A stretch of 64,000 nt of DNA from Flavobacteriales bacterium (GTDB lineage Bacteria > Bacteroidota > Bacteroidia > Flavobacteriales_E > Vicingaceae), in contig JADYZM010000056.1 in the NCBI GenBank assembly GCA_020853105.1, positions 1 through 64,000 on the forward strand. Direction: 5' to 3'. Under the pieces are notes generated by a model. The model did no database searches and was not told where the DNA came from. It saw only the letters and a list, made by a program, of their open reading frames with translations. The translations under genes were made by a program, and so were the position numbers. Below, in pieces: positions 19,844 through 29,153 of this stretch (positions are counted from its first letter, which is position 1; the number at the start of each line of letters is the position of its first letter).

Positions 19844-22738
19844 TTGAGTTATTACAGCATATATCGAAAAGCCGTTTGTTTCACATCAACTGCAATATTG
19901 AAATGTCTGATTATCTTTTTATTATCGAATCAGATATTCGCCCAGCAACCAGCCTACTTCATGCTGGGTGAAGACCAGTTTAGAGGCGTGCAAATTTATG
20001 ATGTCATCCAAGATAACCTACAAAACTATTGGTTTTCAACAAACAACGGACTTTACTTTTACAATGGAGTAAATTTTGAACAAATTCAGTGTCCGGATTC
20101 TAAAAGTATTTCTTTTTTTAATTTGGTAGTGGATTCTAAAGGGACAATCTACTGTAAAAACTTAAACAATCAAATTTTCAAGTTAAATAATAAAAAAGCA
20201 ACTTTATTCCACACACTCAAAAAAGATGAAGTCAACTCAGACGTAAAATTATTAATTAATGGAAATGATGAATTGATGGTGTTTTCAAAAGTCATTAAAC
20301 TCATAGATAAAAAAGGTAAAGTAAAATCACAAATTCATTTAGAAAATCATTATTGCGGACAGCCTAGATTAACAAAAGATAAGTCAGTTATTGCTCACTT
20401 AAATGATTCAGACTCTTTGATTCAGTACCAAAACGGTAAATTTAATTATATAAAAATAAGGCACAAAGAAAGCTATACTTCCCCACCTGTAACCCTTAAT
20501 TTCTATCAAAATGGACAAGATTTGTTTGCTGTTGATATGATTCGTAAAACAACGTATCTATATCAAAATAAACAATTAAGTATAGTTACATTTAAGCAAA
20601 AAGCTCAAATCCATAAAACAGAATCAGTTCGAATATATGAAACATCTAAGGGGTTGTGGATAGCTGGAACACTGCCTGGAATATCATTAGAATCTTATTT
20701 ATACCCCGATTTTCCCACATCTTTTTACAACAGTTTTTTTATCTCTGATGTTTATGAGGATAAGGAAGGAAATATTTTGTTAAGCACCTTTGATAAAGGA
20801 ATCATGGTTATTCCAGATTTATTAATTAATGATGTCATTAAAATTGGAAATGATGCTATTGTTTCATGTATCAATTCAAATGATACCTCAAGTATTTTTG
20901 CGGGAACTTCAAAAGGTGAAATTTACATTAAACACAATGGGAATTTTAAGTTATTAAGCAATAATGGTACACGTCCAATTAATATTGTAGAAAAATTCCC
21001 AGGTAACGATTGGGTAATCACTGACAATGGATATATTAGAGCAATCAATATTCATTCAGGCAAAACAGTTGATATTTATAATGCGTCTCTGAAAGGTGTT
21101 GCTTTTGTTGATGAACATCAATTTTATATAGGGACAAATATAGGGGTTTTTCATGTTAGCAAACAAAAAGACCAATTTGTTGTAACTCCAATCAGTGGCT
21201 TGAATTCTCGTGTGTATCATCTTCATTTTGACAAAGAAAATAAAATACTATACATTGCTACATCTGATGGATTATATGTTTATAGTGAGAGTAAAATTCG
21301 TGAGTTGAAAATAAACAATAATTCCTTATTTGTCAGTGGGATGGCTTTAGATGGGCAAAATTTATACATTTCAACTAGAATCCATGGAATCACCTTAATA
21401 AAAAATGGGAAAATAATCTCATCTCAACAATATTTCTATAATAAACACCATTTAACATTCAAAAAAATACTAGTACAATCATCTGTATTAGTTGCAGAAA
21501 CGTCAGATGGATTTTATTTGATAGAATTGGTTAGTAAAAAAATCAAAGCACTTCATTTTATTTATGAGTTTTCCAACAATCGTATCATTGATTTTGAGAT
21601 GTATAACAATCAATTATGGGTTAGTCACTCCGGTGGTGTTCAAAACATTAATTTGAATTATAAAGCAAATACTAAAACTAGATCGTTTGTCCGTATTGAA
21701 ACTATTCAAATCAACAATAACGACGTAAATTATGACAATTTACAAAAGTTGTCGCACAATCAAAACAAAATACAATTTACTTTTTCTTCCAATTCATTAA
21801 GAAACAGAGGGGTATTGCAATACCAATTCCGTTTATTAGGCAGTGACACTACATGGCAAGTGAATGATTTCAATCAAAATTCGGTAACTTTTAATGCACT
21901 TTCACCGGGCAAATATACATTTCAAATCAGGGTTATAAACCAAAATTATACCAGTGAGATAGAAGAAGTACAATTTAGAATTACACCTCCTTTGTATTTG
22001 CGTTGGTGGTTCACAGTGCTTACTTCAATAGTGTTTTTGGGTATTGTTTATTTCATTTACCGTTGGCAATTACAACGTCAACGAGAAAAATTACAACGGA
22101 TCAATGAGTTGAACAGCTCTAAACTCACCGCTATCAAATCGCAAATGAATCCACACTTCATTTTTAATTCATTGAACTCTATTCAAGATTTGATATTAAA
22201 AGGAGATGTGGAACATTCTTATTCCTATATTTCGACCTTTTCGAACATGGTTAGGGCAACCTTAAACAATTCTGAAAAAGAATTTATTGATGTGGAACAA
22301 GAAATAAAGTTATTGGAGCTTTATCTATCGTTAGAAAAACTCCGCTTCAAAAACGACTTTGAATACGAAATGATTTATGACAAAAACATGAATATTTTGA
22401 TTCCTCCAATGCTGATTCAACCCTTTATCGAAAATGCTTTGGTGCATGGATTGCTACATAAAAAAGGTGCAAAGAAAATAAGCATTCGTTTTCAGTTGAA
22501 CGAAGTTTTTGAATGCATTGTGGAAGATAACGGAATTGGGAGAAAGGCAGCACTCGCCATTCAAAGTCGCCAACAACGCCATGAATCTTTCTCTAGCAAA
22601 GCCATCAAAAAAAGATTTGAAATATTGAGCCATGTGTACAATGGAATATTTGGTTTTGAATACGAAGATTTAGAAAAAGATGGACAAAATATGGGTACAC
22701 GAGTTACCATGAAAATGCCTTATAAAGACAAATTTTGA
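19844..22738 (+). CDS. LytS-like sensor histidine kinase with a beta-propeller sensor domain
   Basis: Up to 964 residues: a signal peptide (KCLIIFLLSNQIFAQ), about 600 residues of predicted periplasmic propeller repeats, a Y_Y_Y-type Ig domain (about 620-715), a membrane helix (about 722-740), and a His_kinase (PF06580-like) domain with MNPHFIFNSLNSIQDLIL (H771). An ATPase domain follows, with IPPMLIQPFIENALVHG and VEDNGIGR. Propeller signs include YDVIQDNLQNYWFSTNNGLY and ISDVYEDKEGNILLSTFDKG. There is no ATG before the signal peptide: the frame is closed by TGA at 19838, so the start is TTG 19844 or TTG 19898. The next gene is a LytTR regulator, 82 nt after this stop, the obvious partner. 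No receiver domain is fused, so it is not a hybrid (HTCS) system. Confidence 0.92.
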   Translation: MSYYSIYRKAVCFTSTAILKCLIIFLLSNQIFAQQPAYFMLGEDQFRGVQIYDVIQDNLQNYWFSTNNGLYFYNGVNFEQIQCPDSKSISFFNLVVDSKGTIYCKNLNNQIFKLNNKKATLFHTLKKDEVNSDVKLLINGNDELMVFSKVIKLIDKKGKVKSQIHLENHYCGQPRLTKDKSVIAHLNDSDSLIQYQNGKFNYIKIRHKESYTSPPVTLNFYQNGQDLFAVDMIRKTTYLYQNKQLSIVTFKQKAQIHKTESVRIYETSKGLWIAGTLPGISLESYLYPDFPTSFYNSFFISDVYEDKEGNILLSTFDKGIMVIPDLLINDVIKIGNDAIVSCINSNDTSSIFAGTSKGEIYIKHNGNFKLLSNNGTRPINIVEKFPGNDWVITDNGYIRAINIHSGKTVDIYNASLKGVAFVDEHQFYIGTNIGVFHVSKQKDQFVVTPISGLNSRVYHLHFDKENKILYIATSDGLYVYSESKIRELKINNNSLFVSGMALDGQNLYISTRIHGITLIKNGKIISSQQYFYNKHHLTFKKILVQSSVLVAETSDGFYLIELVSKKIKALHFIYEFSNNRIIDFEMYNNQLWVSHSGGVQNINLNYKANTKTRSFVRIETIQINNNDVNYDNLQKLSHNQNKIQFTFSSNSLRNRGVLQYQFRLLGSDTTWQVNDFNQNSVTFNALSPGKYTFQIRVINQNYTSEIEEVQFRITPPLYLRWWFTVLTSIVFLGIVYFIYRWQLQRQREKLQRINELNSSKLTAIKSQMNPHFIFNSLNSIQDLILKGDVEHSYSYISTFSNMVRATLNNSEKEFIDVEQEIKLLELYLSLEKLRFKNDFEYEMIYDKNMNILIPPMLIQPFIENALVHGLLHKKGAKKISIRFQLNEVFECIVEDNGIGRKAALAIQSRQQRHESFSSKAIKKRFEILSHVYNGIFGFEYEDLEKDGQNMGTRVTMKMPYKDKF

Positions 22739-22808
22739 CCATTGCTAAACTAAACCTGACCATTGCTGAATTTAGTTTTCTTTTTCTAATTTATAAATTA
22801 CAATTTTG
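22738..22808 (+). promoter_or_regulatory. Predicted LytTR operator-promoter element, copy a (autoregulatory)
   Basis: Two identical 9-bp half-sites ACCATTGCT (22738-22746 and 22759-22767) lie in direct orientation with a 12-bp spacer, 21 bp start to start. Exactly 33 nt later comes CAATTTTG (22801-22808), a 7-of-8 match to TAnnTTTG. The first half-site overlaps the A of the kinase stop codon TGA. The same layout, 71 nt long in every case, recurs at 23583 and 26505. Paired 9-bp direct repeats with about 12 bp between them are the established geometry for LytTR-family DNA binding (AgrA, for example). The transcript leader would be only about 6 nt to the ATG at 22821. Confidence 0.65.
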
Positions 22809-22820
22809 AAGAAAAAAAGC

Positions 22821-23573
22821 ATGAAAGCAATTATTGTAGATGACGAAGAACGAGCAAGAGATGTTTTGGGAAGTTTATTGACCCGATTTTGCACAGGTGT
22901 TGAAGTTATTGCTTCGTGCGAAAATTTGATGACTGCTGTTGAAGCTATAAAAATCCACCAACCGGATGTTGTTTTCTTAGACATTGAAATGCCTCAATAT
23001 GCAGGCTATGAAATTGTAGATTTTTTTGACGAAATAAATCCGACAGCTATCGGATTTGAAATTGTCTTCACTACCGCATACGAACAATACGCTATTAAAG
23101 CGTTTGAAGTCGCAGCTATTGATTATTTGCTCAAACCAATTGACATCGAACGACTTCGCATGTCGGTAGATAGAATAAACAGTAAGCATAACAATAAATT
23201 ACAAACGACTCAGTTTGAAGTGCTGAAAACCCAATTAGAAAGCAATGAAATTCAGCAAATTGTAGTAACCGACAAAGGCAACCAAGTTGTAGTGCAAGTC
23301 AATGACATTATAGCCTTTGAAGCCAATGAATCTTATACCACTGTTCACACTGTTCAAAAAAGCATGCTGGTTAGCAAGAATCTCAAGCACTTTGAAGCTA
23401 TTTTTGAAAGCAGCCAACAATTCATCCGTACACATAAATCGTGGTTAATCAATCCGCTGTTTATTGAACAGTATTGCAAAGCAGAAGCTCAAATTAAGTT
23501 ACGAAACAATATTATCGCCAAATTATCGCGATACAAGAAGAATGAATTTGAAGAATTTGTGGCTTTGAAATAG
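22821..23573 (+). CDS. LytTR-family response regulator
   Basis: With the ATG at 22821 the protein is 250 residues. The receiver domain (1-120) has D7/D8 in IIVDDEE, the phospho-acceptor D54 in VVFLDIEMP, a TTAYEQYAIKAFEV segment and K in YLLKPID. A LytTR DNA-binding domain (about 145-248) includes IIAFEANESYTTVHT, SKNLKHFEAIF, FIRTHKSWLINP and IAKLSRYKKNEF. The frame also opens at a TTG (22806), but that TTG belongs to the conserved -7-like element, so I prefer the ATG. It follows a LytS-like kinase and is probably activated by it. The three copies of an operator with LytTR geometry upstream of this gene and two target units suggest it binds them. Confidence 0.94.
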   Translation: MKAIIVDDEERARDVLGSLLTRFCTGVEVIASCENLMTAVEAIKIHQPDVVFLDIEMPQYAGYEIVDFFDEINPTAIGFEIVFTTAYEQYAIKAFEVAAIDYLLKPIDIERLRMSVDRINSKHNNKLQTTQFEVLKTQLESNEIQQIVVTDKGNQVVVQVNDIIAFEANESYTTVHTVQKSMLVSKNLKHFEAIFESSQQFIRTHKSWLINPLFIEQYCKAEAQIKLRNNIIAKLSRYKKNEFEEFVALK

Positions 23574-23582
23574 CCAAAATTG

Positions 23583-23653
23583 ACCATTGCTAAACTAAAC
23601 CTGACCGTTGCTGAAGTTCTTTCCCACTTTTTGAAGTAAAAAGTTTAGACTTG
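23583..23653 (+). promoter_or_regulatory. Predicted LytTR operator-promoter element, copy b (repeat-protein gene)
   Basis: Half-sites ACCATTGCT (23583-23591) and ACCGTTGCT (23604-23612) with the same 12-bp spacer as copies a and c, then 33 nt, then TAGACTTG (23646-23653), 7 of 8 to TAnnTTTG. A word TTGAAGTAAA occurs twice downstream (23631-23640 and 23651-23660), 20 bp apart; copy c has the same pair at the same spacing while the bases in between differ. The start codon of the T9SS-type repeat protein is at 23678, giving a leader of about 18 nt if the second TTG is the -7 box. Confidence 0.65.
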
Positions 23654-23677
23654 AAGTAAATTTTTAAAAATATAATT

Positions 23678-25120
23678 ATGAGAAAACTTTTATTATCAAT
23701 TGCCTTATTTGTAGGGACGAGTAGTTTATTTGCTCAAACAACATGTATAACAGATACTACATATAACTATGATTTTATATCATCTGTAAAAACATTAACT
23801 GGAAGATATCTTCACAGCTACGATGCTAACAACAATCAAACTCAAGTATTAGTTCAAAATTGGGATGCCGGAACGAGTTCTTGGGTAAACGCAGAGAAAT
23901 ATGACTACACCTACGATGCTAATAACAATAAAACACAATTTATTAGTCAAACGTGGGATGCTGGAACCAGTTCTTGGGTGAATACTAATAAGGAAAACTA
24001 CACCTACGATGCCAACAACAATAAAACACAATTCATTAAACAAACTTGGAATACAGGAACCAGTTCATGGGCAAACGTAGAAAAACATGACTACACCTAC
24101 GATGCCAATAACAATCAAACATATATATTAAATCAAACGTGGGATGCGGGAACAAGCTCTTGGGTGGGCGTAGATAAATATGACTACACTTTCGATGCTA
24201 ACAACAATAATACACAATATTTTAGACAAACTTGGAATACAGGAACAAGTTCTTGGGTGAATGGAAATTTAGAAGATTATACCTACGATGCTAACAACAA
24301 TAATACTCAAAAAATAGCTCAATATTGGAATGTAGGAACAAGCTCTTGGGTGAATTATCAAAAAATTGACTACACCTACGATGCAAACAACAATAACACA
24401 CAAATGTTGAGTAATTACTGGGATGCAGGAACAAGCTCTTGGAATGTTAATCATAAACATGACTTTACCTACAATGCTAACAACAATTTAATAGAGCATA
24501 TAGGACAAAATTGGGATTTTGGAACCAATTCTTGGAAGAACTCAATTAAAGTCAATTTTACCTACGATGCCAACAACAATGAAACAGAAAAATCAGTCAA
24601 AAGCTGGGATGCAGGAACCAGTTCATGGTTAAATAGCAGTATAGAAAACCACTCTTACACTGCAAACAACGATCTAACACTACATTCATCTAAAAGTTGG
24701 GATGCCGGAACCAATTCTTGGGGGTATAGTTATAAATATACTCTTGAATATAACCCTAATAACTGTATGATAGCTAATGACAATTATGATGCATGGAATA
24801 GTAGCACTTCTGATTTTGACGACCACAAACGTTATGAATATGTGGTACATACTGCAACAACAGGTATTGAAGATTTAGCTAAAAATATTTCTTCCATCTA
24901 TCCCAACCCATCAAACGGTACGTTTACCATTGCCTTAGACAAAAACTACAGTCAAGCTACGGTACAAGTGCTTGATTTAATGGGTAAAGTGGTACTTTCA
25001 ACTGCACTTAATCAGCAAACTAGCACTATTGACATGAGCAAGGCTACCAAAGGCGTTTATTTCGTAAAAGTGAATACAAGCGAAGGGACACAAAGCACTA
25101 CAAAAGTGGTAGTGGAGTAA
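23678..25120 (+). CDS. T9SS-type secreted protein with ten tandem 31-residue YD-like repeats
   Basis: A 480-residue protein: signal peptide (1-19, ending SLFAQ), about 28 residues, ten 31-residue repeats plus a degenerate eleventh, a linker, and a C-terminal domain of about 75 residues. That domain begins IYPNPSNGTFTIAL and continues with VLDLMGKVVLST and ATKGVYFVKV, a type A sorting domain of the type IX secretion system, which is cleaved as the protein reaches the surface. Each repeat starts YDANNN and contains WDAGTSSW, recalling RHS/YD repeats with an added Trp motif. Function unknown; an adhesive or structural surface role is inference. A LytTR-type element lies directly upstream. The gene converges on an ATPase gene. 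Confidence 0.88.
   Translation: MRKLLLSIALFVGTSSLFAQTTCITDTTYNYDFISSVKTLTGRYLHSYDANNNQTQVLVQNWDAGTSSWVNAEKYDYTYDANNNKTQFISQTWDAGTSSWVNTNKENYTYDANNNKTQFIKQTWNTGTSSWANVEKHDYTYDANNNQTYILNQTWDAGTSSWVGVDKYDYTFDANNNNTQYFRQTWNTGTSSWVNGNLEDYTYDANNNNTQKIAQYWNVGTSSWVNYQKIDYTYDANNNNTQMLSNYWDAGTSSWNVNHKHDFTYNANNNLIEHIGQNWDFGTNSWKNSIKVNFTYDANNNETEKSVKSWDAGTSSWLNSSIENHSYTANNDLTLHSSKSWDAGTNSWGYSYKYTLEYNPNNCMIANDNYDAWNSSTSDFDDHKRYEYVVHTATTGIEDLAKNISSIYPNPSNGTFTIALDKNYSQATVQVLDLMGKVVLSTALNQQTSTIDMSKATKGVYFVKVNTSEGTQSTTKVVVE
23819..24748 (+). repeat. Ten 93-bp tandem coding repeats
   Basis: Units start with TAC-GAT-GC at 23819, 23912 and every 93 nt thereafter and stay in frame (31 codons). Nucleotide words such as ACCTACGATGCTAACAAC and the codons for GTSSW recur with few changes, while the four to six codons after NNN and before the next YDYT vary. 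Units 8-10 are more diverged, and a degenerate eleventh runs to about 24840. High nucleotide identity points to recent expansion or homogenisation by recombination, so copy number may differ among strains. Confidence 0.93.
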
Positions 25121-25132
25121 TTTTTTTCATAA

Positions 25133-25195
25133 CCGATAGTTATCGGATTTAAAGTTTTCATCAACAGCTCTGTTAGAAATAGTGGGGCTGTTTTT
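25133..25195. terminator. Probable bidirectional terminator between convergent genes
   Basis: Two inverted repeats lie in the 78-nt gap. CCGATA (25133-25138) pairs with TATCGG (25141-25146). AACAGCTC (25163-25170) pairs with GGGCTGTT (25185-25192, one G-T pair), followed by a run of T on the plus strand. The position between the repeat-protein stop and the convergent ATPase stop suits a terminator used from one or both sides. Confidence 0.5.
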
Positions 25196-25198
25196 GAT

Positions 25199-26353
25199 TT
25201 ACTCCAATTTTGCGATATTTCGCCAAGAAATAAAATTACCATTAGAGGTAATAACATCCTCGTCTCCGCCAAAAATTACGTTTAATTCCATGGTTTGATT
25301 TTCATTTAGTTTTTTCCAATACAAAAGATTATCAAAAAAGCTTAGATGTTTTGTTTTAGATGATTTTATTTCAAACAGCTGAAAATCATTACCTTTTTCA
25401 AACAAGAGGTCAATTTCTTTTTTATCCTTTGTTTGCCAGAAAAAAGAATTTGCATTTTTACCTAAATTTGTTCTTTTCTTTAAAAATTCATTCATCACCA
25501 AGTTTTCAAACAAATTCCCCTTCAAATAGTGAGATACTACTTGACCTTCATTTTCAATTCCTAAAAGTGAGCATGCCAATCCGGTATCGTAGAAGTATAA
25601 TTTAGGTGTTTTAACTAAACGTTTATTAAAATTCTTATAGTGAGGTTGTACTTTGTATATAATATAACTGGCTTCCAAAATGACAATCCAAGATTTTGCT
25701 GTGTTCAAGCTAATTCCAGCATCAATTGCCAACGATTGTAAATTGAGTAATTGTCCTATTCTGCCTGCACATAATTTCAAAAACAAAGTAAATACGGATA
25801 GGTTTTCAATATTTTTTATTGCCCTAACATCTCGTTCAATATAGGAATTAATGTAATTGGGGTAAAAATCACTTGGGTGAATGTTTTTGTCGTAAATTCG
25901 TGGATAACCACCATTATAAATTAACGTTTCATAATTTTCAATTGTCCTTTTAGATGCTTGTAATTCACTGTACGAAAAAGGTAATAATTTTAGTAATGCT
26001 GTTCTTCCAGCCAAAGATTGTGCAATGTTTTCAAGTAATAAAAAATTTTGTGAACCCGATAACACAAACTTTACTTCATTACTATCTACGATTGTCTGGA
26101 TGTAAGAAAATAAATCTGGAACTCTTTGAATTTCATCTAAAATAGCACCTTTAGGATAATTTGCTAAGAAGCCTTTCGGGTCGTTTTGTGCTAGCAACCT
26201 ATCGTCAATATTTTCAAGTGAAATATACGGTAACTGCTTAAAAACAGCTTTTATTAAGGTTGTTTTTCCTGTTTGCCGTGGACCAGTCAAAGTAACTATT
26301 GGAAATTTTTCTAAAAGCTCCCTTAATTTGTATTCTAATTCTCTTTTTATCAT
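25199..26353 (-). CDS. AAA-type ATPase with C-terminal DUF4143 domain
   Basis: A 384-residue protein. The AAA_14-like ATPase domain has Walker A TLTGPRQTGKTTLI (about 20-33), Walker B GAILDEIQRVPDL, sensor FVLSGSQNFLLL and AGRTALLKLLPFSYSEL. A helical middle follows, then a C-terminal DUF4143 part containing KEIDLLFEKGNDFQLFEIKSSK, an E-x-D ... E-x-K pattern reminiscent of PD-(D/E)XK nuclease folds. The family is widespread and patchy, with no settled role; the nuclease-like motif is often thought degenerate. It is the only minus-strand gene in the accessory block and lies between two operator-linked units without having an operator itself. It may be an independent arrival. Confidence 0.9.
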   Translation of the reverse strand: MIKRELEYKLRELLEKFPIVTLTGPRQTGKTTLIKAVFKQLPYISLENIDDRLLAQNDPKGFLANYPKGAILDEIQRVPDLFSYIQTIVDSNEVKFVLSGSQNFLLLENIAQSLAGRTALLKLLPFSYSELQASKRTIENYETLIYNGGYPRIYDKNIHPSDFYPNYINSYIERDVRAIKNIENLSVFTLFLKLCAGRIGQLLNLQSLAIDAGISLNTAKSWIVILEASYIIYKVQPHYKNFNKRLVKTPKLYFYDTGLACSLLGIENEGQVVSHYLKGNLFENLVMNEFLKKRTNLGKNANSFFWQTKDKKEIDLLFEKGNDFQLFEIKSSKTKHLSFFDNLLYWKKLNENQTMELNVIFGGDEDVITSNGNFISWRNIAKLE

Positions 26354-26504
26354 TTAACAAACATAAATATATTTAGACAAATATGCAATAAAAAAGCAAA
26401 TTAGTATAGTATTAAATATTAAAGTAGTCTGGATTATGCCTTTTCAATTTTAAAAATCAAAAAATATTTTTTACTCAAAAAGAGTCAAATTTTTAACAAA
26501 AATA

Positions 26505-26575
26505 ACCATTGCTAAACTAAACCTGACCGTTGCTGAATTTCCTCCCGACATTTTGAGGTAAAATATCTACTCTTG
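26505..26575 (+). promoter_or_regulatory. Predicted LytTR operator-promoter element, copy c (glycine-rich operon)
   Basis: Half-sites ACCATTGCT (26505-26513) and ACCGTTGCT (26526-26534) with the same 12-bp spacer as the other copies, 33 nt, then TACTCTTG (26568-26575), 7 of 8 to TAnnTTTG. The pair TTGAGGTAA (26553 and 26573) is 20 bp apart, as in copy b. The intervening sequences differ from copy b, so conservation is concentrated in the half-sites, the spacer and the TTG-containing words. The start codon is at 26594, giving a leader of about 12 nt from this -7 box. Confidence 0.65.
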
Positions 26576-26593
26576 AGGTAATTTTTATATGTC

Positions 26594-27931
26594 ATGAAAA
26601 AAATGCCAATTTACATCCAAAAAATAAAATTAGTCTTGCTATTGCTATTTGTTAGTTTACAACTAAAAACAAATGCACAAGAAAATCAAAATATCGAACT
26701 ATCTAAGTTAGCCAATGGTAATTTTCCAGTATATAAAATAGTAGAAAATCATGGTGATTTTAAAATTGAATCCTCATCAAAACCATGGCCAGTAAGTTTT
26801 ATAAAAGAAAACGGAGCATTTAGTGAGATAATAATTAATAGGTCTGGAATTATTGAAGAAAAGTACCAGGCCGATTTAATTGGCTATCCTGCCTATTATA
26901 AATCAGCCACTAGCGAAATTGTAGTTACAGCCATTGATAAAAAAATATATTATTATTCATGGAGTGTTAAAACCGGAGCATCGATTAAATATATTTTATC
27001 TGAAAGTAATGTAAAAAATTATGAAAATGAAAAAAATCAGTTAGACCAATATAGAAATAGTATTAAAATGCTTCAGTCCGATACAAGAAATCAACGAATT
27101 GAAGAAAATAACGCAAAGGCAGAAAAACTAGCTGAAGAAAATACCTTAAAAGGCAAAACGATTAAATCGATTAAAATTGTTGCAATTGAAAAACCAGCTG
27201 AAATTGGTTTGCTAAGTATTTTGGCAATAGGTGTTGAGTTTGAATTAGCGGATGGAAAAATACTTAAAACAAAAAATTTAGGTGGAAACACACCATACAC
27301 AGATTTTGAAGCAGATGTAAAAGGAGGCAGTTTTGAAGGGGGAGATTTTAAAGTGGCTGACGATAGTAGAAAAATTCCAAATGATAAAATTGAAATAAGC
27401 GTTTGGTCTAAATATGATGACAAAAAAATTACTGGAAAATACAGTAGTACTATCAATTACAAAAAAGATATCCATTACAATTACTCTGGTAACGCAGGTG
27501 CAAACGGTAGGGCTTACACATCTGGATATACAATTAATGGGTCCAATGGAAGCGATGGAAAAAGTGTGACCATTTCAGCAACAAACACAACTGTTAACGG
27601 TGAATTAGTAAACAAACTGATTATAACAGATACCTTTTCGGGTAAAGTATTAGCAGAAGCAAAATTGAACATTAATAACACCATTCATATTAATGTTAGC
27701 GGTGGTAATGGCGGTAATGGAAGTATTGAAAAAACTGGAGATGGAGGAAATGGAGGGAATGGTGGTAATGGCGGAAAAATAAACTTAACAGGGAATGGTT
27801 CGGCGTCTTTAAAAATTGTAGAAACCAATAATGGCGGCACAGGTGGAGAAGGCGGTAAAACAAAGTCAGCGGCTTACTATAATGGCAAAAATGGTAACTC
27901 AGGTAAAAAAGGAATATTAATCAAACAATAA
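26594..27931 (+). CDS. Secreted protein with a glycine/asparagine-rich C-terminus
   Basis: A 445-residue protein with a signal peptide (about 1-28, ending LKTNAQ). The N-terminal 150 residues look like a compact domain, followed by a Lys/Glu-rich helix (about 140-180), a segment with KIVAIEKPAEIGLLSILAIGVEFELADGK split by polar loops, and a C-terminal 150 residues dominated by Gly and Asn (GGNGGNGSIEKTGDGGNGG and NNGGTGGEGGKTK). Such G-G-N/G-x-x tracts can form extended or polyglycine-type helices, but no family is claimed. There is no recognisable T9SS sorting domain. It has a LytTR-type element upstream and is 13 nt from the next gene, so the two are probably one operon. Confidence 0.75.
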   Translation: MKKMPIYIQKIKLVLLLLFVSLQLKTNAQENQNIELSKLANGNFPVYKIVENHGDFKIESSSKPWPVSFIKENGAFSEIIINRSGIIEEKYQADLIGYPAYYKSATSEIVVTAIDKKIYYYSWSVKTGASIKYILSESNVKNYENEKNQLDQYRNSIKMLQSDTRNQRIEENNAKAEKLAEENTLKGKTIKSIKIVAIEKPAEIGLLSILAIGVEFELADGKILKTKNLGGNTPYTDFEADVKGGSFEGGDFKVADDSRKIPNDKIEISVWSKYDDKKITGKYSSTINYKKDIHYNYSGNAGANGRAYTSGYTINGSNGSDGKSVTISATNTTVNGELVNKLIITDTFSGKVLAEAKLNINNTIHINVSGGNGGNGSIEKTGDGGNGGNGGNGGKINLTGNGSASLKIVETNNGGTGGEGGKTKSAAYYNGKNGNSGKKGILIKQ

Positions 27932-27944
27932 AAACAAAAAAACA

Positions 27945-29153
27945 ATGAAAAAAGTAAAAATTATTTTAACAGCAGCTATAATTGGATTAGCAAGTGTACA
28001 TGCTAACGCACAATTTGGAAAACTAAAAGAAAAAATAAATAGTGGCGGTGGTGGAAAAGCATCTGGAAATTTTGAAGCATTTAATCAAGAAAAAGATGAA
28101 ATGGGAATAACCGGACAATATTTTGGAATGTCTGATAAAAAATCCTACGGCTTTAGATTTGTAAAAGAAGCAAATGGTAAAATTATAAACGAATTACAGT
28201 ATTTTGAAAAGAAAGGTACCGAGCCTCAACTTAAATTGTATTTAAAAGAAAGTTATTATACTAAAAACAATGTAAAACTTTTTTTTATTTGGGTTACAGC
28301 AAATGCAGATGGTTATGTTGAATTAATTGAACTTGAACCCGGTGTACTTGCACAAATAGTACAAACAACAGAAAGTGCTAACGGTGGTCCGGCTACTTTA
28401 GATGCTAAAAGAACTGTAAAAGATATTTATGCCAAAGATCAAACAAAATTTACAACCTATGATATTGAAACAGCTCAAGCAAAAGTAGATATGATAATAG
28501 CTTCGTTAAATACCGAAAAAATCGCAAAAGAAACTGCTGAATGGATGAAAATCGAAGTGTATGCGAAAAATGTAAAAAAAGTAGTTTTTTCAAATCAACA
28601 TTACAATTTACAAAAACCAGGATATCCTCATAAAATTGCAGTTACCGGTGACGGTTTTAAAACTGAACTAGATATGGCTGGAAACATGAATTTTATGGCA
28701 TTTTTCAATTCGCCTCCAAAAGTTTCTTATCCTGGACAACAAATAAATATTGAATATGAAATGAATGGACAAAAAGTTGACAGAGAAACACTAAGAAAAA
28801 AATCTGCAGCATGGAGTAATATGGTAAAAATTATTGAAACAAAAGATTTTGAATATCGTCAATCACCAATAAGAACAATCCGTGAGTATAACACATACCA
28901 TAGTGCTTATGTTCAGGATTATGCTTGTATTCAATTACTATACAACAATAAAGATAAATTTAAAGTTGACCAAACGTATCAATTAACCGTTAGATTTTAT
29001 GCGAACAGAGATGGTGAAAACGGTGATTTATTAGCGGAAGGAATCATAAAACTAAAATATACTAAAGAAGCGAAATTAGCTTTTGAAGGAGATCCAAGTA
29101 AACCAGAAGAAAAAGGTGTTTGGGCTCAGTTTGAAGCGTTTTTAAATGAATAA
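27945..29153 (+). CDS. Secreted protein of unknown function
   Basis: A 402-residue protein starting with a clear signal peptide (MKKVKIILTAAIIGLASVHANAQ) followed by FGKLKEKINSGGGGKASGN. The mature region is Lys/Glu-rich with predicted alternating strands (YGFRFVKEANGKIINELQYF, QLTVRFYANRDGENGDLLAEG) and no membrane segments or catalytic motif that I recognise. It begins 13 nt after the glycine-rich protein gene and is followed by a strong terminator at 29196, so it is the last gene of that unit and falls under the same upstream element. A partner role for the glycine-rich protein is inference from operon structure only. Confidence 0.72.
   Translation: MKKVKIILTAAIIGLASVHANAQFGKLKEKINSGGGGKASGNFEAFNQEKDEMGITGQYFGMSDKKSYGFRFVKEANGKIINELQYFEKKGTEPQLKLYLKESYYTKNNVKLFFIWVTANADGYVELIELEPGVLAQIVQTTESANGGPATLDAKRTVKDIYAKDQTKFTTYDIETAQAKVDMIIASLNTEKIAKETAEWMKIEVYAKNVKKVVFSNQHYNLQKPGYPHKIAVTGDGFKTELDMAGNMNFMAFFNSPPKVSYPGQQINIEYEMNGQKVDRETLRKKSAAWSNMVKIIETKDFEYRQSPIRTIREYNTYHSAYVQDYACIQLLYNNKDKFKVDQTYQLTVRFYANRDGENGDLLAEGIIKLKYTKEAKLAFEGDPSKPEEKGVWAQFEAFLNE

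Follow-up and report, generated by a model that had tools for sequence, protein, structure and literature searches.

AgrA, the response regulator of the Staphylococcus aureus agr system, consists of a receiver and a LytTR domain and activates its own locus. It is paired with a kinase of the peptide-sensor family and acts through the divergent P2 and P3 promoters, which are of another type and carry a different half-site from those described below. The hybrid two-component systems (HTCS) of Bacteroides polysaccharide loci combine a Reg_prop/Y_Y_Y sensor with an AraC output and control surface proteins locally. The AgrA site pairs at P2 and P3 are centred at about -60 (PMC4227749). BtsS/BtsR and YpdA/YpdB each consist of a LytS-type kinase and a receiver-LytTR regulator with few targets (PMC5552118). 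The LytTR Regulatory Systems (LRS) HdrRM and BrsRM use 9-bp direct repeats that come in pairs, separated by 11-13 bp and set at a fixed distance from the promoter, and positive autoregulation has been shown for HdrRM; calculated from the numbers tabulated in the same paper, 16 of 19 LytTR promoters have 32-33 nt between the second repeat and the -10 hexamer (PMC6193735). LRS-like operons have also been predicted in Bacteroides thetaiotaomicron and B. ovatus, with a TATCTTTG box and 11-bp repeat words 22 bp apart (PMC6193735). LytS/LytTR systems of the propeller type recur in Bacteroidota; in the literature we searched, none of their targets is named, and the terms LytTR and regulator propeller are not combined.

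The locus analysed here lies in a 64,000-nt stretch of a Flavobacteriales genome (contig JADYZM010000056.1), which we call the window. It begins with a LytS-type sensor histidine kinase (19844-22738, + strand) that contains a periplasmic regulator propeller (Reg_prop, 3.2e-9; Y_Y_Y, 4.5e-10), a transmembrane segment and a His_kinase domain (PF06580, 1.6e-22). The next gene (22821-23573, +) encodes a response regulator of 250 residues with a receiver (Response_reg, PF00072, 2.1e-20) and a LytTR domain (PF04397, 1.6e-17). These Pfam matches bear out the original prediction, which had placed a LytTR regulator and its probable kinase in the same block. D54 and K105 of the regulator are invariant in the alignment of its orthologs, which are 45-60% identical. 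A sequence search against the PDB returned, among the matches listed, receiver domains only and no LytTR-DNA structure.

Two units of exported proteins follow. Cargo 1 (23678-25120, +) is a secreted repeat protein with a DUF3836 match (7.6e-18) and a C-terminal sorting domain of the type IX secretion system (T9SS; Por_Secre_tail, 4.8e-18). Cargo 2a (26594-27931, +), a glycine-rich protein with a signal peptide and no Pfam family, forms one transcription unit with cargo 2b (27945-29153, +), a secreted protein of 402 residues that also belongs to no family. Structures modelled for these two proteins scored mean pLDDT values of 55 and 44, so confidence in them is low. Our search found no relatives of either protein within the same taxonomic family; close orthologs were found only through the DNA pattern described below, in other families (genomes G284 and G369), and there is a distant homolog of 2a at locus L056 (2e-15). 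Between the two cargo units lies an inverted gene for an AAA_14/DUF4143 ATPase (25199-26353, -), which is missing from this place in G284 and G369 and looks like an insertion.

Direct half-site pairs had been described upstream of the regulator, the repeat protein and the glycine-rich operon, and all three are exact + strand matches to ACCRTTGCT-N12-ACCRTTGCT (22738-22767, 23583-23612 and 26505-26534). The pairs read ACCATTGCT-AAACTAAACCTG-ACC(A/G)TTGCT from 22738, 23583 and 26505. All three window copies share the 12-bp spacer AAACTAAACCTG, as claimed, and the proposed element length of 71 nt corresponds in each case to a span that opens with half-site 1 and closes with the last base of a -7 box. 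These boxes are of the Bacteroidota type (TAnnTTTG-like), each with one mismatch to the consensus, and begin exactly 33 nt after the second half-site in all three elements. Element 1 (22738-22808, +) has half-sites at 22738-22746 and 22759-22767 and the box CAATTTTG at 22801-22808; element 2 (23583-23653, +) has half-sites at 23583-23591 and 23604-23612 and the box TAGACTTG at 23646-23653; element 3 (26505-26575, +) has half-sites at 26505-26513 and 26526-26534 and the box TACTCTTG at 26568-26575. Taking the flavobacterial box as positions -12 to -5 (PMC9723704), we predict transcription starts at about 22813, 23658 and 26580, leaders of 8, 20 and 14 nt, respectively, and a repeat pair centred at about -60. 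Element 1 overlaps the kinase stop codon and starts inside it, so that the regulator could be boosted separately from the kinase. We saw no clear -33 element at the usual distance in the window elements, which would fit dependence on an activator.

Elements 2 and 3 are similar over their full length and look like recent duplicates; the three copies are therefore not independent. The shared spacer carries little functional information, because spacers vary from genome to genome. Copies 2 and 3 also have a second direct repeat with 20-bp spacing over the core promoter, which copy 1 lacks: TTGAAGTAA occurs at 23631-23639 and again at 23651-23659, and TTGAGGTAA at 26553-26561 and 26573-26581. The A-to-G change in this repeat is coherent inside each of the two copies.

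A strict search of relatives for ACCRTTGCT found little, because the half-site word changes between genomes, and was replaced by a scan that assumes no sequence. We examined 963 upstream regions, taken from the window, from 80 loci of response regulator homologs and from 16 further loci, for a direct repeat with a period of 13 to 30 followed 29-35 nt downstream by a -7 box. Period 20 yielded 14 regions with this combination and period 21 yielded 22; every other period yielded 0-4. With a matrix built from these sites, 28 regions score at least 20, compared with none at wrong periods and 1-4 at wrong box offsets. Orthologous elements precede the regulator gene at 14 loci or more, and in other genera the orthologs of the regulator show the same arrangement before the regulator gene and before linked genes for secreted proteins. 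The distance from repeat to box is 32-33 nt in nearly all relatives; their spacers are mostly 11 or 12 bp, giving a period of 20 or 21 bp depending on the genome. In the closest relatives, too, the geometry is kept and the word varied.

The words found include CCATTGCTRAA, CCATTCCTAAA, CATTAATGAA, TTCGTGAA and CACTTCCTCAA, and CCRTTNCTRAA describes the half-site better. Within a site, both halves match each other, and the promoters within one locus tend toward a common word, as expected for an operator evolving with its regulator. The elements thus conform to every testable part of the definition of a LytTR operator, as repeat size, spacing and fixed promoter distance all match: a pair of roughly 9-bp direct repeats separated by 11-13 bp (here 9-bp half-sites 12 bp apart, in three copies), at a fixed distance upstream of a core promoter (33 nt in the window, 32-33 nt in relatives).

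A quick tree of 88 response regulators places that of the window in a clade of 12 (SH-aLRT 98), all labelled element-positive, the labels of L058 and L166 on weak evidence. The element label is more clustered on this tree than in any of 500 shuffles. At the level of sequence, the element is inherited together with the regulator clade. Sites are weak or unrecognisable at some orthologs (L058, L160, L216, L217 and L222).

We made several further observations at these loci. Genome G284 has two paralogous cassettes, one (L224, contig C4) with the word ACGATTCATGAA and the other (L199, contig C1) with CCATTCCTGAA/CTGTTCCTGAA. Immediately after the regulator gene, L160 (G016, contig C8) and L163 have long tandem arrays of a 7-bp unit (TTAGTGG or TTAGGTG), at the place that the cargo promoter takes in other cassettes. 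L058 is annotated as gammaproteobacterial (CP034120.1, Glaciecola amylolytica chromosome) and encodes a regulator 54% identical to ours, together with its kinase; the regulator nests among those of Bacteroidota, and the locus reflects either gene transfer or a mislabelled record. In our own genome, an M61-peptidase gene near another LytTR gene (L173, contig C19) is preceded by a weaker promoter of the repeat-plus-box kind that uses a separate word; L114, L129 and L132 share this promoter.

As an out-of-sample test, we searched 395 Bacteroidia genomes with the composite pattern CNRTTNCTRAA-N9-CNRTTNCTRAA-N29-TANNTTTG, allowing at most one mismatch. This gave 12 matches in nine genomes, and the reversed control pattern gave none in the same 395. 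Each of the 12 matches is followed, at a distance of a few to about 34 nt, by the start of a protein with a signal peptide; SBBP-repeat proteins, LamG-like proteins and homologs of the glycine-rich protein are among these. An ortholog of the window regulator (45-57% identity) is encoded no more than about 10 kb from each match. The kinase ortholog adjoins the regulator in eight of the nine matched loci; the ninth (L205) stops at a contig edge. A separate protein search found close regulator orthologs in 17 of the 395 genomes, and all nine matched genomes are among these 17 (p ~4e-14). At most of the other ortholog loci the matrix scan finds sites before the regulator and the next gene; it finds none within 1.5 kb at L216, L217 and L222. 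The gene order in G284 and G369 is kinase, regulator, element, glycine-rich protein and 402-residue protein, with 63-66% and 70% identity to the window for the last two. The pair has thus accompanied the regulator for a long time. The window differs in that the repeat protein and the inverted ATPase gene intervene.

Among element-bearing genes other than kinases and regulators, 13 of 20 encode a Por_Secre_tail domain, compared with 3 of 57 control genes from the same loci (p 1.7e-7). The M61-peptidase promoters of L114, L129, L132 and L173 were left out of these 20, as they score low and look like one orthologous promoter. Three of the seven targets lacking the domain are truncated where their contig stops. 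In a same-genus relative, the third gene with an element (L162:7407-8729) is laid out like the 402-residue protein and is unlike it in sequence.

Regulator mRNAs are predicted, unexpectedly, to be nearly leaderless. Computed from box positions in the extended site set, the regulator leader has a median of 1 nt and is 0-3 nt long at 13 of 15 sites, whereas the median for cargo genes is 20 nt (p 1.7e-7). The regulator sites concerned are those of L199-L207, L162, L163, L164, L168, L059 and the window (22801-22821); the window regulator, with its predicted 8 nt, is an exception. For comparison, 5.5% of mRNAs in F. psychrophilum are leaderless (PMC9723704).

Could the elements have arisen by chance, or reflect general A+T-rich promoter composition? 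The half-sites are A+T-rich and TAnnTTTG is common, but at up to three mismatches the window contains three matches where 0.17 are expected, none of 100 dinucleotide shuffles reaches three, and the wrong-period and reversed controls are near zero. We give this explanation practically no credence. It is also very improbable that the elements are a dispersed repeat, a small mobile element or a promoter that was duplicated recently and has no regulator of its own, as might be supposed from the identical spacer and the likeness of copies 2 and 3. Many unrelated or intragenic copies would have spoken for a dispersed repeat. A pattern search of the own genome (2.87 Mb, 88 contigs) with ACCRTTGCT-N12-ACCRTTGCT found, at zero or one mismatch, the three window sites and no fourth copy, all within the block as predicted, on the same strand, and at similar distances from gene starts. 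The composite pattern including the -7 box returned the same three elements at up to two mismatches. The genome has 14 matches at two or three mismatches, 13 of them inside open reading frames, and none has a TAnnTTTG box (at least 5 of 6 positions) at 32-34 nt. Rfam has no match at 22500-27000, and orthologous genes in other genera keep the geometry with different spacers. By these searches, the regulon is strictly local.

It is unlikely, too, that the sites bind the regulator and repress, or bind another DNA-binding protein that is merely linked to them. The sign of regulation does not follow from sequence alone, and the genome encodes three other LytTR proteins. Around the genes for these three, however, we found no good match save a low-scoring site with a different word near the one on contig C19 (score 14.1), and element presence tracks the clade of the window regulator across genera. 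The sites lie wholly upstream of the promoter, in the position used by activating LytTR proteins, and overlap neither the -7 box nor the start.

The analysis strongly supports the interpretation first put forward, and we consider it highly likely that the elements are operator-promoters of the LytTR regulator at 22821-23573, activated by it, giving positive feedback and switching of the two linked exported-protein units. In this model, the phosphorylated regulator would bind both half-sites of the direct repeat from the same side of the helix, around a midpoint near -60, and would aid sigma-A RNA polymerase at a promoter that has a -7 box and no evident -33 box. A signal sensed by the propeller kinase would raise the regulator itself, and the same putative signal would raise the T9SS-sorted repeat protein and the glycine-rich/402-residue pair. 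In more general terms, these are very probably activator-type operator-promoters of the LytTR class, through which a response regulator controls its own synthesis and switches on linked secreted proteins, often cargo of type IX secretion.

What the relatives add is generality: judged from the genomes compared, the operator-promoter is conserved and portable, and across Bacteroidia it goes with a single regulator clade and with the exported proteins encoded near it. Its rule predicts targets from DNA alone, as each of the 12 matches in the 395 genomes pointed to a secreted-protein gene next to the regulator, and it opens the control of many T9SS cargo proteins to direct testing. More tentatively, a widespread self-contained Bacteroidota cassette may exist, made up of propeller kinase, LytTR regulator translated from a leaderless mRNA, and exported proteins, often T9SS cargo, encoded alongside, with each paralogous cassette using its own half-site word. 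If so, several surface-display switches could run in parallel with no interference between them, and gain of the portable 71-nt element could allow cargo genes to be swapped.

How does the locus compare with the known systems? With a receiver and a LytTR output domain in the regulator and a PF06580 kinase next to it, the locus encodes a LytS/LytTR two-component system whose sensor carries a propeller. It does not qualify as an HTCS, which is a one-piece hybrid with AraC output, whereas here the kinase and the LytTR regulator are encoded by separate genes. Nor is it an LRS: those regulators are one-component LytTR proteins, lacking a receiver and co-transcribed with a membrane inhibitor protein, whereas ours has a receiver domain and its partner is a histidine kinase with a propeller, and the regulator here would drive linked genes for exported proteins. 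BtsS and YpdA are integral-membrane, pyruvate-responsive kinases with transporter targets, in contrast to the periplasmic propeller sensor and secreted proteins of the present system (PMC5552118). Shared with AgrA are the receiver-LytTR regulator, the direct-repeat pair and, as proposed here, activation of the own locus; the centre of the window pairs, near -60, coincides with the AgrA position (PMC4227749). The repeat-to-box distance of 32-33 nt equals the published distance from LytTR repeat to hexamer (PMC6193735). Thus, the LytTR repeat-to-promoter geometry is kept although the Bacteroidota promoter sequence differs.
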